Assembly: GCF_039778605.1 (NCBI RefSeq)
Contig: NZ_CP156060.1
Span: 2,108,001 to 2,172,000, forward strand
Source of the DNA: Flavobacterium sp. WV_118_3
GTDB taxonomy: Bacteria > Bacteroidota > Bacteroidia > Flavobacteriales > Flavobacteriaceae
Direction of reading: 5' to 3'
Length of the DNA stretch: 64,000 nt
In this document: positions 7,427-13,990 of the stretch, piece by piece
How the letters are laid out: every line of letters starts with the position of its first letter
Numbering within the stretch: the stretch's first letter is position 1
Program-made: the position numbers and the translations under genes
Notes under the pieces: model-generated
Database searches by the model: none
The model's input: the letters and a program-made list of their open reading frames with translations, nothing else
What the model was told of the DNA's origin: nothing

Positions 7427-7816
7427 GTGGCTTATTTAACGATCCAACCGCTTTATTCGAATGCTTTTCTATTCCATAAACTACCGGGAAGTCCGATTGA
7501 CACACTTAGAACCGTTGAAAAAATTAAGAATTCAGAATTTCAGGTCTTTACGATTACCCAAAAACCTCCCAGTCAAAAAACATTTACGATGCTCCTGTAT
7601 GATCGGTTATTCGGTAAAAAAGAATTAGCCCTTACTAGTCTATATAGGAACGAAGAGAAAGGTAAAACAGCGGTTATCCGCCTGGCGAAATTCTACATTT
7701 TAAAAGAAAGTTCCAAAACCGGCCATGCGGAAGAAAAAACAGGATTCCTTTTTATTATAGTTTCAACAACATGGGTTAACTTCTTCTGTTCGACTAAAAC
7801 CGATATTGCAATGTAA
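7427..7816 (+). CDS. Doubtful hypothetical ORF in the guaB/TonB-receptor gap
   Basis: 129 codons from a GTG start. It fills almost the whole 456-base gap between guaB and the TonB receptor gene and overlaps the 3' end of the latter by 23 bases on the opposite strand. The first 100 codons use codons similar to the neighbours, but there is no recognised domain, no convincing promoter, and the C-terminus runs into antisense sequence. It may be a small species-specific protein, a decayed remnant, or chance. Apart from the guaB promoter nothing else is seen in this gap. Confidence 0.25.
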   Translation: MAYLTIQPLYSNAFLFHKLPGSPIDTLRTVEKIKNSEFQVFTITQKPPSQKTFTMLLYDRLFGKKELALTSLYRNEEKGKTAVIRLAKFYILKESSKTGHAEEKTGFLFIIVSTTWVNFFCSTKTDIAM

Positions 7817-10250
7817 GATAGCCCGCTCTCGGTGCTGATGGTATAATCCCCGGACCAGGATAACCGGTGGCTCTTCGGGTAAAATAAATCGTATTCATCA
7901 GGTTCGTAATTCCGGTTTCCAATGTAAAATGGGAACCGAATTTATAGGATAACGACCAATCTGTAATTGCATAACCGGGAACCTGACCTTCGATTCCGCG
8001 TAAGTTTTCGTTTTTGTCCTGTTTTATATTCGTAGCATCGGTGTATTGCGCGCTTAGATACGTAAACTGTACACTTGCTATCAGGTTTTTATAGCCTGAC
8101 GTTATCCCTGTTTTTAAATTGATCATCGGAACAAATTCTACCTGATTTCCGGTTATCCCCGGTTGTTTCGAATGCGTATACGCTGACTTTGTAAGCGCCA
8201 GATTGGCAAATACATTCCATTTGTAATTGTTATTTAACGGATTAAATAGTATTTTTTGCAAACTTAAATCAGTGAAAAATTCAAATCCGTATAGCATTGC
8301 ATCCCCCACATTGGTTCGGAAGCGGATAATCCGAAAATCGTCTGTCTCTTTAATAATCTGTCCCAAACGCCCTTTGTAGGCCAATCCAAAAGCACTGATA
8401 TCATACGTCAACTTGTTTTTCCATTGGCCCCGAATTCCGAAATCAAACGTATAACCGTATTCATCCTTTAGATGCTCATCGATCTGGTAGGATGGTTCTG
8501 TAATTCGTATATCATTAAACGTAACCGAGCGGTAATTTTGTGAGCAATTCAGATACGCTTCCATTGCTTTGACCGGCTTAAAACTCAAACCGATTCCTAA
8601 CAGCACAAACGAACGTTTTAAATCGTTTTCTTCATCATAGCGATTATCCAAAATGACATTCCCGGCATTATCGCGGTTTATTTTTCGATAGTATCCTTTC
8701 GCCCGTGTATTGATATATTCCCAACGAATTCCGGGTGTTATCGAAAGTGCATTCGTGACACGGATAATATTTTCTCCAAACAACGCTAAATTGAAATTTG
8801 GATAGCTGTAATCGGATTGATTTTGATAGTACGGGAATTCTTCCGTTGCAAAATTAAAATCAGCATCACTTCCGGAACTTCCCGGCCCTTGTCGGGCATT
8901 GTTTTTCGACTGATAATACTTTCCGCCTATCACAAAGGCATTTTCATGACCAAGAAAGCGATACCGGTGTACTATTTTTGCTTCGGCACCCCAATTGGCA
9001 AATTTTCCGGTAATCAGATCACGAACGGTTCCTTCCTGATCTTCCTGAAATACACGATTGGAACGAAATCCTAATGCTTTCCGACCGGCATACAATCCGA
9101 ATACATTCAGGCTTATATCTGTTTTTTGAGTAGCCTGATGTCTCATTCTAAATGAAAAAAGATTCCAATCAACCGCAAACCAATTTCGCTTCCGATTACT
9201 TTGAAAGGCATCTTCATAAAACATTTTATCCGTTAATCCTCCGGGCTGATGCGCTATATACTGAAAATGAGTGTAGTCAAAACTTAAGTTCGTTTTACTA
9301 TTAATACGATAATTAAAGTTTCCAAAATAATTTTGAGATTCAAAATCAGAATTAAGCTGAAAACCATCTCCTTTTTTATAATTTAAAAACGTGTAATAAC
9401 TAAAATTCTTTATCGTTCCGCTTAAATCGGTAAAGCTGGTAAATAAATTATGGCTCCCTATGGTTTGTCTGTTCGTCAACCGGAGTTTTTTATGTTGCTC
9501 CGGAGCTTTAATTTTAAAATTGATCAATCCGCCAAACTGCGTTCCGTATTGTAAGGATGCGGCGCCTCTTACGATCTGTATCCGGTCTAATCCTTCGGCC
9601 GGCGGTGTATAATAACTTTCGGGATATCCTAAAATATCGGCACTACTATCGTAATCGTTTTGACGGATATTAAAATGTGCCGATCGATTCGGATCCAGTC
9701 CTCTTCCGCCAATGTTAAGTTGTAAACCACCGGCATCACTTTCATAAATATTCAATCCTACGACCTGTGAAAACACTTGTCGGGCTAGATTTACAGCCTT
9801 ATTTCCCATTTGTGCAGCAACAATAACCACTTCTGATTTTTTACCGGCATAAATTCCCATTCCATCAACATCCCGCAATCGTGACATTGCAAAAACTTCC
9901 TTTCTCCTTTTTTGAATTAAAACTTCACTGAGTCGTATTTCCATCGGCCTCAATACCACCAACACACTGATATCCTGATCCTTTACATTTATTTTTTGTT
10001 CTTTCAGATGAAAATTATCGGATAAAAAAATCAAATGATATTGACCGGGCATTATATTCGAAAAAGTAAATTCCCCGTTTTCGTCGGATTGTACCCGGAT
10101 ACCATCATCTACTTTTAAGATTTGAGCCCAAACAACCGGAGCTTCATTATTAGCATTTATTATTTTTCCATGGATATTGTATTGTGGAAAACAACTCCAA
10201 CAGATCAATGTAAATAATACGATACTAAAGTCCTTTACTCTCATCTTCAA
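7794..10250 (-). CDS. TonB-dependent receptor, FecA-like (iron chelate uptake)
   Basis: 818 residues. A signal peptide (VLFTLICWSCF) is followed by a carboxypeptidase-regulatory-like beta domain (about 25-105), a plug domain (about 140-260; GGRGLDPNRSAHFNIRQND and IQIVRGAASLQYGTQFGG), and a 22-strand barrel ending in the aromatic residue of LTLQYRF. The plug block resembles Fe3+-dicitrate receptors; the substrate is inferred to be a ferric chelate. Its start overlaps the 3' end of the HTTM gene by 26 bases, and it is the last gene of a four-gene operon with an imelysin, which supports an iron role. No separate promoter is seen. Confidence 0.9.
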   Translation of the reverse strand: MKMRVKDFSIVLFTLICWSCFPQYNIHGKIINANNEAPVVWAQILKVDDGIRVQSDENGEFTFSNIMPGQYHLIFLSDNFHLKEQKINVKDQDISVLVVLRPMEIRLSEVLIQKRRKEVFAMSRLRDVDGMGIYAGKKSEVVIVAAQMGNKAVNLARQVFSQVVGLNIYESDAGGLQLNIGGRGLDPNRSAHFNIRQNDYDSSADILGYPESYYTPPAEGLDRIQIVRGAASLQYGTQFGGLINFKIKAPEQHKKLRLTNRQTIGSHNLFTSFTDLSGTIKNFSYYTFLNYKKGDGFQLNSDFESQNYFGNFNYRINSKTNLSFDYTHFQYIAHQPGGLTDKMFYEDAFQSNRKRNWFAVDWNLFSFRMRHQATQKTDISLNVFGLYAGRKALGFRSNRVFQEDQEGTVRDLITGKFANWGAEAKIVHRYRFLGHENAFVIGGKYYQSKNNARQGPGSSGSDADFNFATEEFPYYQNQSDYSYPNFNLALFGENIIRVTNALSITPGIRWEYINTRAKGYYRKINRDNAGNVILDNRYDEENDLKRSFVLLGIGLSFKPVKAMEAYLNCSQNYRSVTFNDIRITEPSYQIDEHLKDEYGYTFDFGIRGQWKNKLTYDISAFGLAYKGRLGQIIKETDDFRIIRFRTNVGDAMLYGFEFFTDLSLQKILFNPLNNNYKWNVFANLALTKSAYTHSKQPGITGNQVEFVPMINLKTGITSGYKNLIASVQFTYLSAQYTDATNIKQDKNENLRGIEGQVPGYAITDWSLSYKFGSHFTLETGITNLMNTIYFTRRATGYPGPGIIPSAPRAGYLTLQYRF

Positions 10251-11589
10251 ATGGAATAATCCAGTATTTTGGTAAAAAAGAATCTTTCTCTTTTGCCAGA
10301 TTTACAGTCGGGTTAATGAATATTCGAGAAGGTCTTCCGTTAAGGGTTACGAAGCTTTCCACAGAAACTATAGGATCATGTATCCCTTTTTGTTTGTAAT
10401 AATCGTGTATAAAACGGGCAAACTCAATGATAAAGTCCGGCTGAAAGGCCATTTGTTTTTCCTGAAAAGGGGTTAAAAATTCGGAGTTATCGATATAAAA
10501 AGAATTTCCTGTTACCGCATCTTTTACAATAAACTGCGTGTAACCTGCTTTTTCCATCAGCATAACCCGCCAGGAAAAGCGGAACCCCTCTTCTGTCCAG
10601 AATAATGCACCCGGATATAAAAGATAACGCAGTGGGAATAGCAATTGTAGTACAAAAAAACAAATCAATATTCTGATACGTATTGCTGCGCCGTTCAGTG
10701 TTGTGGTGAATCGTGCTTTTCCGTTATCAAATCGGGTCTTATTGATTTTAAAAATTATACTGAGGTATTGCAATGCTTTATGATGAGACTTTGCCTTAAA
10801 AAACACCAATGTTGCACCGATCATGATAAACGGAAACATTCCGATTGGAAACAAAATCCGGGTTAGACTATGAAAAACGACTACCAGTACAAAGGCAATA
10901 AATCGGGTTTTGCGATACAACAACAGAAACGGGATAGCCAAATCATATAACATACCTGCCCAACTGAATACAAGTGGCATCCATTCCTGTTGGAATAAAA
11001 AACCCAATACCGGAAGATCATACTGCGGTTTTAGCCATAACTGTAACGGCATGGCTTTGAACAACCAATCTGAATTGATTTTGGCCAATCCGGCATAAAA
11101 ATATACAATCCCTAACATAAGCTTCAGACAGTCGATACACCAGGCCGGTATTTTCTGAAAGGCTAATTCCGGTTTTAATCGGGCATCCATTGCATAATAG
11201 ACATTAGCCGGCAAAAAAAGGAGTATAAACGCTATCGCACTAATAAAATAGTAATGATTCAGATAGGTTGTTTTATCCATTAATTCGATATACGTAAAGC
11301 TTATAAAAAACAGGATAATGGCAATTCTATATCGATATCCTATAGTGATCAATGCACAGGACAAAGCACAAACCAAAAAAATCAGATACGTAAAATTCCC
11401 TAATGGTTTTATCCCTTCCAATCCGTAATAGGAAAAGAAAAACTTTGGTTCAATATACAACGTCTTCACCCAACCTTTACTCACAAACCGAACCAGACTA
11501 ACCAACATAATAGTACCGAAAAGGATACGAAAAGTAGCCAACGGAGCGGCTTCGGTTGTTCGGTTTAGATAGTCCTGAAATCGTTTCAT
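10225..11589 (-). CDS. HTTM / vitamin K-dependent gamma-carboxylase-like membrane protein
   Basis: 454 residues from the ATG at 11589, 10 bases after the imelysin stop; an in-frame ATG at 11622 would add 11 residues and overlap the imelysin gene. Several membrane helices form the HTTM domain, followed by a soluble C-terminal domain of about 120 residues. From memory of human gamma-glutamyl carboxylase, the block LNHYYF matches the region of His160, and YFYAGLAKINSDW matches that of the catalytic base Lys218; FPIGMFPF also aligns. Flavobacteria make menaquinone (vitamin K2), the relevant cofactor type. The substrate is unknown. It lies between an imelysin and a TonB receptor, with tight spacing on both sides. 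Confidence 0.8.
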   Translation of the reverse strand: MKRFQDYLNRTTEAAPLATFRILFGTIMLVSLVRFVSKGWVKTLYIEPKFFFSYYGLEGIKPLGNFTYLIFLVCALSCALITIGYRYRIAIILFFISFTYIELMDKTTYLNHYYFISAIAFILLFLPANVYYAMDARLKPELAFQKIPAWCIDCLKLMLGIVYFYAGLAKINSDWLFKAMPLQLWLKPQYDLPVLGFLFQQEWMPLVFSWAGMLYDLAIPFLLLYRKTRFIAFVLVVVFHSLTRILFPIGMFPFIMIGATLVFFKAKSHHKALQYLSIIFKINKTRFDNGKARFTTTLNGAAIRIRILICFFVLQLLFPLRYLLYPGALFWTEEGFRFSWRVMLMEKAGYTQFIVKDAVTGNSFYIDNSEFLTPFQEKQMAFQPDFIIEFARFIHDYYKQKGIHDPIVSVESFVTLNGRPSRIFINPTVNLAKEKDSFLPKYWIIPFEDESKGL

Positions 11590-11599
11590 CTGATTCGTA

Positions 11600-12727
11600 T
11601 TAATCACCGTCTGTGTCTGCATAATCGATCGCGATACTCATCGCGGATGTCATATCCGATTTCATATAGGCTACATTACGTTGTAAAACATTAAAAGTGG
11701 CAGTCATCTTTGTATTATCGGTAATAATCTGCTGACTTAAATCCGGTAGTAGCAAATTTGCTATACAAAGTGATTTATAGAATTGATTACAAATCAGTTT
11801 ACTTAATAAAATTCCAGACTCTTCGCTCTTACCCTTTATAGTCAGATAATCCAAATAACTTTTCAACGAAGATCCGCTTTCATTTCCGTTAAAATGTTTG
11901 CCTTCAAAGAAGTTTTGCGCCGCTATGATCGACTCCAAAAGCAGTTCTTTCGAATACTTCTTACTGTAATATGCTTCTACCTTATCCGGATAGGTTTCAG
12001 TCGAAAACTTACCTGCCGGATAGCCTATTTTTGCAGTCCGAATGTCTTTTTCATAAAAATGAATATACGCATTAATCATCCGGTTTACACTTCCGGAAGC
12101 CGTATTGTCATTTCTTTGAATAAAAATGGCTTTATATCCGGATTGCCAGTCATCATAAACCGTGTTAAACAATAATGTCAATCGGTTTACAAGCGCAGAC
12201 AGGTAACCTTTATACTTGTTGGCATTCGTGTTTGTTGTATACCGCTCCAGGATTGCATTTTCATTCTCTCCTAATCCGAACAACATATAATCCAGAGCCG
12301 GAAACCCCTGTACGACATCAAAAGAAATTCCGTTCAGATCAAAATTACCCGAATCGATTTTTACCGCTATTTGTCCTGTTGCCGTCGGATAGGTATTTGA
12401 ATACTTGCTGAATTGTATTTCATCTGCTTTACCGATAGAAAACATCGAAATATATTGATAGGTTTTATACGCTTCCAGCCATTTTTGTCTTACTTCTTCA
12501 AGCTGAGTCCTATCGGGTGTCGCAATAAAATCATCCGAAGCTCTTTTCAGGTTTTCTAATTTTGATTTATAATGCTGAAATGAAGGCATAATGTTATTAT
12601 CTACCCAATTCACCAGCATAGCTTTTCTATCGTATTTATCTGCTACAACCTCACTATCCGTAGTATTAAGACCGCAAGACCACAATAATTGCGCTACCAC
12701 CATTAATAACAGCCCTGTTTTTTTCAT
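11600..12727 (-). CDS. Imelysin-family (peptidase M75-like) lipoprotein
   Basis: 375 residues. A lipoprotein signal peptide ends at LLWSCG, so the protein is probably anchored in the outer or inner membrane facing the periplasm. The body is helical, with the Bacteroidetes form of the imelysin GxHxxE region at GFPALDYMLFGLGENE, where the histidine is replaced. Imelysins are iron-regulated and linked to iron uptake (EfeO carries the same domain); peptidase activity is doubtful in most. It lies downstream of the DUF4856 gene by 110 bases and just before the HTTM gene, so it is probably the second gene of the operon. Confidence 0.87.
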   Translation of the reverse strand: MKKTGLLLMVVAQLLWSCGLNTTDSEVVADKYDRKAMLVNWVDNNIMPSFQHYKSKLENLKRASDDFIATPDRTQLEEVRQKWLEAYKTYQYISMFSIGKADEIQFSKYSNTYPTATGQIAVKIDSGNFDLNGISFDVVQGFPALDYMLFGLGENENAILERYTTNTNANKYKGYLSALVNRLTLLFNTVYDDWQSGYKAIFIQRNDNTASGSVNRMINAYIHFYEKDIRTAKIGYPAGKFSTETYPDKVEAYYSKKYSKELLLESIIAAQNFFEGKHFNGNESGSSLKSYLDYLTIKGKSEESGILLSKLICNQFYKSLCIANLLLPDLSQQIITDNTKMTATFNVLQRNVAYMKSDMTSAMSIAIDYADTDGD

Positions 12728-12837: not shown

Positions 12838-13953
12838 TTAATGGCTTCCCCCTTGTGTTATGGCTTGTTCAACCGTAAATCCAAATGCCGCTGCGATCGT
12901 CTTAGAAATCAAATCAATTTGATCTGCTGTATAGTTAGCATCCCAAAATCCATCATTACCGCCTAAAAATGAAGTCAATAATTCCGTAACCCTTGCCTTT
13001 GTAAGATAAGGCTGTCCGGTAGCCGGGTTGTGTGTATAAGCCAATCCGCTTATAAATCCGTAAGCTTCCGACAAACCGTGAAAGGCGGCCGCAAGATCAC
13101 CGGTGATTGTTGTTGTACCTGATAATTTACCTTTTGCTTTATTCATATAATAAACCGCACGGATAGCACCTACTTTTGATAGTTTTTCTCTTATGATGTT
13201 TATCTGCTTATCCCGTTCTATTTTATTACCTGCTATAATTGTCGCTTTCCCTTTTTCAAAAGCAGCCGTAACCGACTGTGTTATCCCTGAAAAATTCGCA
13301 TTTCCATTGACGGTATTCAAATAACTTTCCCAGAAATATTTTTTGTTATTGTCCGGTCCTTTGTATCCGAAGATGTAATTATACCCTTCCTCCCATAGTT
13401 GTTGTGCTTCCTCTGTATTAGCCGCAGCATTTAAAACAGCAGGATTCAAACAATAATTCAACGTCTGATCGAGTAAAACGGCCCCCATAAGTCCTTTGAT
13501 AATAGCTTGATTGATTTCAAGTCCTTTTTCATTAAATAATCTGGTAGAAGTAGCCGTTGTATACGATCCTTTTACACCCTTAGCCGCCGGAATCTGATAG
13601 GTCGCAGCTACATCTCCCATTTCGGTAAAGAAAAGATCAAACTCCGGTTTTGCATTCTCAGCTGTTTTTTCCTTTAGGGAAACGCCGGAAGTATTTAAAG
13701 CAGCTTCCGAAAACGGATTTCCGCTATTTGTAAACATTCCTTTAATTTTGGCTTTGGTCAACGGATAAAGTGTTTTATCCTTAGAATATGCATCAAATTC
13801 AACCAGCATTTTTACCCTTGTTAAGGCCTGAGCCGGATTAGCATGAACCTGAATTGCAATTGTTTGCTGTGGCGTGTCATTGGAATCATTTGAACACGAT
13901 ACCGTAAAGGCCGACGCTATTAAAACGGCAGCTGTAATTTTTCTAAAACGCAT
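12838..13953 (-). CDS. DUF4856 domain lipoprotein, first gene of the imelysin operon
   Basis: 371 residues. The signal peptide ends in a lipobox (AFTVSC then SNDSND), so this is a predicted lipoprotein. The rest matches the DUF4856 pattern as I know it: the N-terminal block LVEFDAYSKDKTLYP, the helical blocks LWEEGYNYIFGYKG and FWESYLNTV, and AAAFHGLSEAYGFISGLAY. It is commonly found beside imelysins in Bacteroidota and may be a distant relative of them; the function is unknown. A -7 box lies upstream, and the 110-base gap to the imelysin gene leaves room for an internal promoter or processing site. Confidence 0.82.
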   Translation of the reverse strand: MRFRKITAAVLIASAFTVSCSNDSNDTPQQTIAIQVHANPAQALTRVKMLVEFDAYSKDKTLYPLTKAKIKGMFTNSGNPFSEAALNTSGVSLKEKTAENAKPEFDLFFTEMGDVAATYQIPAAKGVKGSYTTATSTRLFNEKGLEINQAIIKGLMGAVLLDQTLNYCLNPAVLNAAANTEEAQQLWEEGYNYIFGYKGPDNNKKYFWESYLNTVNGNANFSGITQSVTAAFEKGKATIIAGNKIERDKQINIIREKLSKVGAIRAVYYMNKAKGKLSGTTTITGDLAAAFHGLSEAYGFISGLAYTHNPATGQPYLTKARVTELLTSFLGGNDGFWDANYTADQIDLISKTIAAAFGFTVEQAITQGGSH

Positions 13954-13990
13954 ATTAATTCTTATTAAGATTAATTATAAACTATTAAAA

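Follow-up and report, generated by a model that had tools for sequence, protein, structure and literature searches.

A stretch of 64,000 nucleotides from Flavobacterium sp. WV_118_3 (contig NZ_CP156060.1, positions 2,108,001 to 2,172,000; hereafter the window) carries on its reverse strand a module of four genes, which encode a DUF4856 lipoprotein, an imelysin-like lipoprotein, a homologue of vitamin K-dependent gamma-carboxylase (VKGC; GGCX in humans) and a TonB-dependent receptor. To our knowledge, no substrate has so far been agreed on for bacterial homologues of vitamin K carboxylases. The VKGC homologue (10225..11589, (-)) has 454 residues and comprises an HTTM membrane domain (PF05090, residues 9-266, E 5.4e-78, 262.6 bits against a cut-off of 27.7) and a periplasmic domain of the lumenal type (PF22777, residues 305-450, E 8.1e-56, 188.6 bits against a cut-off of 27.7). 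This length corresponds to a start at ATG 11589, 10 bases past the imelysin stop codon (11600-11602). The longest open reading frame (ORF) from the first ATG is 10225-11622 (-), with 465 residues, and a start at this alternative ATG 11622 would give a 23-base overlap with the imelysin gene.

The first gene of the module encodes the DUF4856 lipoprotein (12838..13953, (-); PF16148, E 6e-72), whose upstream place is conserved and for which sequence searches returned no credible solved relatives. It is followed by the gene for the imelysin-like lipoprotein (11600..12727, (-); PF09375, E 1.3e-28), which is of the IPPA (proline, GFPALD) type. The last gene, recognized from its Pfam matches and ORF, encodes the TonB-dependent receptor with a CarbopepD_reg_2 domain (7794..10250, (-)) and overlaps the VKGC gene by 26 bases if it starts at TTG 10250 or by 20 bases if it starts at the in-frame ATG 10244. 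Overlaps of 19-26 bases were the commonest among relatives (34 of 66), so that both starts are possible. The original prediction, made from the letters of the window alone, had described a 454-residue membrane protein with a C-terminal soluble domain, placed 10 bases after an imelysin gene, overlapping a FecA-like receptor gene by 26 bases and accompanied by a DUF4856 gene. Pfam matches bore out the domain architecture and all three neighbours, and the two distances hold for ATG 11589 and TTG 10250, respectively. The receptor is indeed TonB-dependent, but the FecA label was loose, with a score of 72 bits for the equivalog model against a cut-off of 1100.

Conservation of the module

A survey of 395 Bacteroidota genomes detected VKGC in 82 genomes (97 places), imelysin in 90 and a DUF4856 match in 58. 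The VKGC gene lay directly downstream of an imelysin gene, on the same strand, in 69 of the 97 places and 68 of the 82 VKGC genomes, and DUF4856 was also present upstream in 52 of these 69 places. A further sample consisted of 80 loci from named records, the best 80 by similarity, whose genomes are partly shared with the survey; imelysin adjoined VKGC in 77 of them. Combined, the two samples gave 145 distinct imelysin-VKGC pairs. For 137 of them the stretch extended far enough to either side to show all four genes, and 129 of these 137 had the complete order of lipoprotein, imelysin, VKGC and receptor. The predicted association of VKGC with imelysin is therefore conserved across the phylum. 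A tree of 63 rows, reconstructed by a quick method with a midpoint root and including every second operon VKGC and that of the window, grouped 35 operon VKGCs, two further VKGCs (L116 and L126) and one from a Persicobacter plasmid in one clade, separated from the others by a branch with an SH-aLRT support of 99. A joint mention of HTTM and imelysin was not found in the open-access literature, nor was any mention of DUF4856; gamma-carboxylase and imelysin appear together there in one paper.

Association with iron limitation

A Fur-box-like 19-mer (13964..13982, (-)) is located 11-29 bases before the start codon of the DUF4856 gene and agrees at 15 of 19 bases with the consensus published for Riemerella anatipestifer (PMC5609570), which was used for all scoring with at least 15 of 19 bases counted as a match. 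Such matches preceded 57 of 67 operon leaders (two of the 69 operon loci, L088 and L094, were lost at ORF picking, leaving 67 for this and later counts), compared with 6 of the 367 remaining genes at these loci. When the controls were narrowed to genes next to an opposed gene or to a gap of more than 100 bases, the count was 3 of 154. When both strands were scored, a match was present in 60 of 67 leaders versus about 1 of 67 shuffled leaders.

Genes of this operon are already present in a published table of R. anatipestifer expression (PMC5609570, Table 4). The -Fe/+Fe values in the wild type and in the fur mutant were 2.11 and 2.70 for RAYM_09779 (TonB receptor), 2.64 and 2.77 for RAYM_09784 (vitamin K-dependent gamma-carboxylase), 3.07 and 2.92 for RAYM_09789 (imelysin) and 2.41 and 3.07 for RAYM_09794 (hypothetical protein), all four genes being upregulated on iron limitation. 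Their names and the order of their locus tags match the module of the window, from which we infer that the two operons are the same; in the passages covered here, the carboxylase is listed without comment. Gene order, Fur-like boxes and the published iron response together support the original proposal of a single uptake system. The four genes very probably form one iron-uptake module, and VKGC is a near-constant member of this module, which is probably controlled by Fur.

The opposite reading, in which the gene order reflects chance or hitch-hiking and iron uptake does not involve VKGC, can point to VKGCs of other clades that sit elsewhere, for example directly after an apparent ribF gene in 13 of 23 non-operon cases. 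It was rejected on the 69 of 97 adjacent places and the 129 of 137 pairs with the full order, and it is made highly improbable also by the Fur-like leaders, the joint iron response in R. anatipestifer and the retention of the partners after operon splits.

Active site of VKGC in comparison with human GGCX

Human GGCX was matched by residues 3-446 of the window VKGC (E 7.4e-40, phmmer against PDB sequences), and the predicted model superposes over its full length on residues 48-511 of the GGCX fold. The histidine and lysine residues were paired by alignment, and the superposition keeps the same register. His112 (11254..11256, (-)) is equivalent to His160 of GGCX, in the pocket for glutamate, with DKTTYLNHYYF pairing with DKTSWNNHSYL. 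Lys170 (11080..11082, (-)) is equivalent to the base Lys218, with VYFYAGLAKINSDW pairing with VYFIAGVKKLDADW; the neighbouring Lys217 is an alanine in the window VKGC. The original suggestion that two blocks of the protein correspond to the His160 and Lys218 regions is upheld by this alignment, with which the whole-length superposition agrees.

Residue conservation was counted in an alignment of human GGCX, 67 operon VKGCs and 23 others, the last including L116 and L126, which are grouped there as 'non-operon' and belong to the operon clade by the tree. The functional roles of the GGCX residues are those given in PMC12589487. The equivalents of Lys218, His160, Asn159, Phe286, Phe294, Phe299, Trp223, Ala214, Gly259 and Met402 were invariant in all 67 operon VKGCs, and that of Val210 was retained in 61. 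The position of Tyr395 was occupied by tyrosine in 52 and by phenylalanine, as in the window, in 15. Five of the six residues of the naphthoquinone pocket (Phe286, Phe294, Phe299, Trp223, Val210 and Met401) are retained in the window VKGC, the exception being Met401. It is likely that VKGC has kept its quinol chemistry.

The imelysin and its C-terminal tail

The imelysin of the window fits the IPPA type in its M75 fold, in the proline that replaces the histidine of the GxHxxE motif and in its C-terminal D-G-D (DGD). Loss of this histidine is described for the IPPA family (PMC3143127). The use of the DGD tail as a mark of the family was noticed in the present analysis, and no published definition was found. 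Among the operon imelysins the histidine position was proline in 49 of 67, another residue in 17 and histidine in one. The tail itself (residues 363-375; 11603..11641, (-)) lies past the last helix. Of 148 imelysins adjacent to VKGC, 147 had D-G-D as their exact C-terminus (144 of the 145 that are distinct), and the exception ended in DGDS; pairwise identities in this set start at 18 %, with a median of 39 %. Acidic residues are invariant elsewhere in the protein too, at Glu226 and Glu251 (67 of 67).

The end of the tail is predicted to be unstructured, with a pLDDT in the model of 54 over the last five residues and 85 over the preceding ten; residues 384-389 are disordered in the IPPA crystal (PMC3143127). 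DGD ends were rarer among imelysins not adjacent to VKGC (8 of 50), and these eight comprised L231 of genome G288 and seven in imelysin-DHOR-imelysin settings, in VKGC-bearing genomes. Within the 395-genome sample, a DGD imelysin was present in 72 of 72 genomes with a VKGC of the imelysin-associated clade versus 0 of 17 imelysin genomes lacking VKGC; best BLAST match was used to place G136, G338, G179 and G030 in the clade and to leave out G235, and G390, with a weak M75 match, was left out of the 17. The tail of G136 was taken from an incomplete imelysin at the edge of its contig, G338 has a complete imelysin and a VKGC truncated at a contig end, and two weak imelysin matches, in G105 and G280, are outside the tail counts.

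Patterns that end in DGD occurred 13 times in the genome of the window versus eight times in a reversed control, and six of the 13 had a true stop codon. The only long open frames among them were the imelysin and one frame of 231 residues resembling a membrane protein. No description of the D-G-D tail of imelysins, also in connection with DUF1513, was found in the open-access literature.

Proposed role of VKGC

These observations suggest, tentatively, that the protein is a dedicated VKGC-type enzyme of an iron-starvation module that carries out a menaquinol-driven change of an exported partner. The imelysin would be the likeliest single target, an assignment that we hold with less than even confidence. 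The module would consist of the DUF4856 lipoprotein, a lipid-anchored imelysin of the proline type, VKGC in the inner membrane and the TonB-dependent receptor. Iron shortage would release the operon, and the exported partners would then pass the periplasmic face of VKGC. Menaquinol would be bound in the conserved naphthoquinone pocket and Lys170 would take the proton of the hydroquinone, as in GGCX; the oxygenated quinone would in turn be the strong base that acts on an acidic residue positioned by Asn111 and His112. This residue may belong to the imelysin, above all to its C-terminal D-G-D tail, or be one of the invariant Glu226 and Glu251, and the product would be a malonate-like ligand for the iron passed on from the receptor. 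That the reaction is a carboxylation is possible but somewhat doubtful. In its most specific form, that of a menaquinol-using maturase which carboxylates or otherwise alters the D-G-D tail or an invariant glutamate of the imelysin to yield a Gla-like ligand for iron rather than calcium, the proposal is unlikely.

Several lines of evidence weigh against the proposal, concerning the enzyme and its control, the occurrence of the tail, and loci in which the operon is broken up. Compared with human GGCX, Asn158 is replaced by leucine, Met401 by valine and Lys217 by alanine in 67 of 67 operon VKGCs, and Arg436 by glutamine in 57 of 67; the losses of Asn158, Lys217 and Arg436 count here. Together with the invariant active-site residues, these replacements make it look as if the chemistry is retained and the mode of holding the substrate is altered. 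GGCX also has a part beyond residue 511 that has no counterpart in the window VKGC, which ends at the equivalent of this residue, so that the second lobe of the two-lobed propeptide-binding domain (the exosite) is not retained. As a feature of the animal enzyme, the missing exosite counts against a protein that works exactly like GGCX and not against membership of the wider family. We know of neither a propeptide nor a Gla protein for a bacterial VKGC. Aspartate is a poor substrate of GGCX, and the tail contains aspartate and no glutamate. Leptospira is also said to have a VKGC orthologue, whose study reportedly found altered activity, hinting at a role other than carboxylation. In the same genus an iron-responsive imelysin-DHOR-imelysin operon has been described (PMC7567364, PMC13066512). 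As to control, the iron response of R. anatipestifer survives in the fur mutant, which indicates that Fur is not the sole regulator.

A further difference from the human enzyme concerns recycling. VKOR, the epoxide recycler, was rejected as a partner of VKGC after it showed no co-occurrence with the operon (17 of 68 operon genomes versus 76 of 327 others, P 0.75); the genome of the window has one VKOR-domain frame of 533 residues. Gene content therefore does not support a GGCX-like vitamin K cycle in this bacterial operon setting; the quinol would have to be supplied as newly synthesized menaquinone or by a different reductase. That the quinol pocket and lysine base are retained while VKOR does not co-occur speaks for an alternative in which VKGC acts, with menaquinol as the driving reductant, as a ferric reductase or a factor that releases iron. 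The imelysin tail or some other partner would present Fe(III) to the pocket, the deprotonated menaquinol would reduce it and Fe(II) would be released with neither a covalent change nor an epoxide. The iron-uptake setting and the acidic tail, flexible at its end, are consistent with this mechanism; no redox metal site or haem, however, was apparent on reading the sequence, no dedicated search having been made, and the carboxylate-binding pair Asn159/His160, which a reductase would not need, is retained as well. We regard a reductase as unlikely.

The occurrence of the tail outside Bacteroidota is a second difficulty. Nine of 14 proteobacterial plasmid matches were read and five were left out. 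The Psychrobacter IPPA protein (Psyc_1802, 3pf0) shares with the operon imelysins the fold, the replacement of the GxHxxE histidine and the DGD end. All nine proteobacterial IPPA-type imelysins read (L262-L270) end in DGD, without an adjacent VKGC, while none of the six His-type imelysins encoded alongside them has this end. The tail thus belongs to the IPPA family and is older than its pairing with VKGC, and the reading of the tail as substrate was given less weight. The idea that only VKGC partners end in DGD had held in the 395 Bacteroidota genomes but failed on Proteobacteria. As a docking tag for DHOR the tail was likewise weakened as a candidate, no DHOR match being found in 46 of the 72 VKGC-operon genomes.

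The proteobacterial operons of the ICMP-DHOR-IPPA type often have DUF1513 where those of Bacteroidota have VKGC. DUF1513 followed the DGD imelysin in five of seven annotated proteobacterial loci and was above the cut-off in 0 of 72 VKGC-operon genomes, with weak matches in six. In Bacteroidota VKGC occupies the slot of DUF1513. Its present role might then be that of a membrane partner which docks the imelysin tail and modifies nothing, but a mere docking protein would not need to keep the base and the quinone-pocket residues, and these do not vary in any of the 67 operon VKGCs; this reading is quite unlikely. The gene before the DGD imelysin in the seven annotated loci was annotated as a di-heme oxidoreductase in four and as a cytochrome c or c-type cytochrome in three.

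Loci in which VKGC stands apart from imelysin

Five operon-clade VKGCs were not beside an imelysin gene, and in four of the five a DGD imelysin was present elsewhere in the genome. Two Roseivirga metagenome-assembled genomes (MAGs; 8.6 and 8.2 Mb) have VKGC adjoining DUF4856, with the DGD imelysin and receptor on a separate stretch. In G288 (L126, L231) the lipoprotein, VKGC and receptor genes lie together and the DGD imelysin is alone on another contig, a true split of the operon. G108 has a solitary VKGC that retains a Fur box like those of the operons, matching at 16 of 19 bases, and a DGD imelysin in a DHOR operon. In a Flavobacteriaceae MAG (L202) VKGC and receptor lie downstream of a different gene, and no imelysin was found in its 2.2 Mb, which may be incomplete. 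The gene that takes the place of imelysin there (L202 2-979, (+), its start cut by the contig end) encodes a protein that has repeats rich in Asp as well as a CARDB domain and weakly matches a secretion tail.

The three splits that retain the lipoprotein (the two Roseivirga MAGs and G288) thus have VKGC beside the lipoprotein and not the imelysin. This favours a reading in which VKGC acts on the DUF4856-type lipoprotein or on the TonB receptor, and the tail of the imelysin has a separate and earlier origin. The L202 MAG and the proteobacterial DGD tails that have no adjacent VKGC point the same way. G108, with VKGC and a DGD imelysin, has however no DUF4856 match in its genome, and the Persicobacter plasmid has the order imelysin (His type)-DHOR-imelysin (DGD)-VKGC with neither DUF4856 nor a TonB receptor found in the stretch examined. 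We consider a lipoprotein or receptor target rather unlikely. The evidence on the partner of VKGC is divided, in that imelysin is nearly always adjacent or present in trans, yet VKGC and lipoprotein are paired in three splits.

One clade of VKGCs is now tied to three defined partners, probable iron control, retained catalytic residues and a highly conserved tail as a candidate target. If the imelysin is indeed modified, it would be, as far as we know, the first physiological substrate of a bacterial VKGC. Modification of any of the partners would give vitamin K chemistry a bacterial role in metal capture and would bear on the origin of the animal clotting-factor enzyme. The D-G-D tail of the proline-type imelysins, common to two phyla, offers a handle on the working of imelysins, which PMC3143127 calls poorly understood.

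Other VKGC homologues

Outside the operon clade, 13 of 23 VKGCs were encoded directly downstream of a ribF-like gene (L037, L042, L045-L050 and L118-L122), which we take to be ribF (FAD synthase) from the appearance of its sequence. This is a second conserved association of VKGC, perhaps with a link to flavin. A VKGC-like HTTM protein with 32 % identity over its full length is encoded on Paracoccus albus plasmid p1 (L258 8968-10359, (+)), where it adjoins a DUF393 gene; no imelysin was found in this 19-kb stretch.

The genome of the window has a second VKGC, which belongs to the ribF-type clade (L033 7712-9103, (-); G000:C1 near 646 kb) and has a Fur-like box before it that matches at 15 of 19 bases. 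The gene points away from a divergent cluster of genes for a beta-barrel, a His-type imelysin and DHOR, and is followed on the same strand by genes that, from the appearance of their sequences, are thioredoxin-like, ApbE-like and DUF3570-like. Also encoded nearby is a small protein that resembles a lipoprotein and contains three stretches of 7-8 aspartates (L033 2417-3028, (-)).

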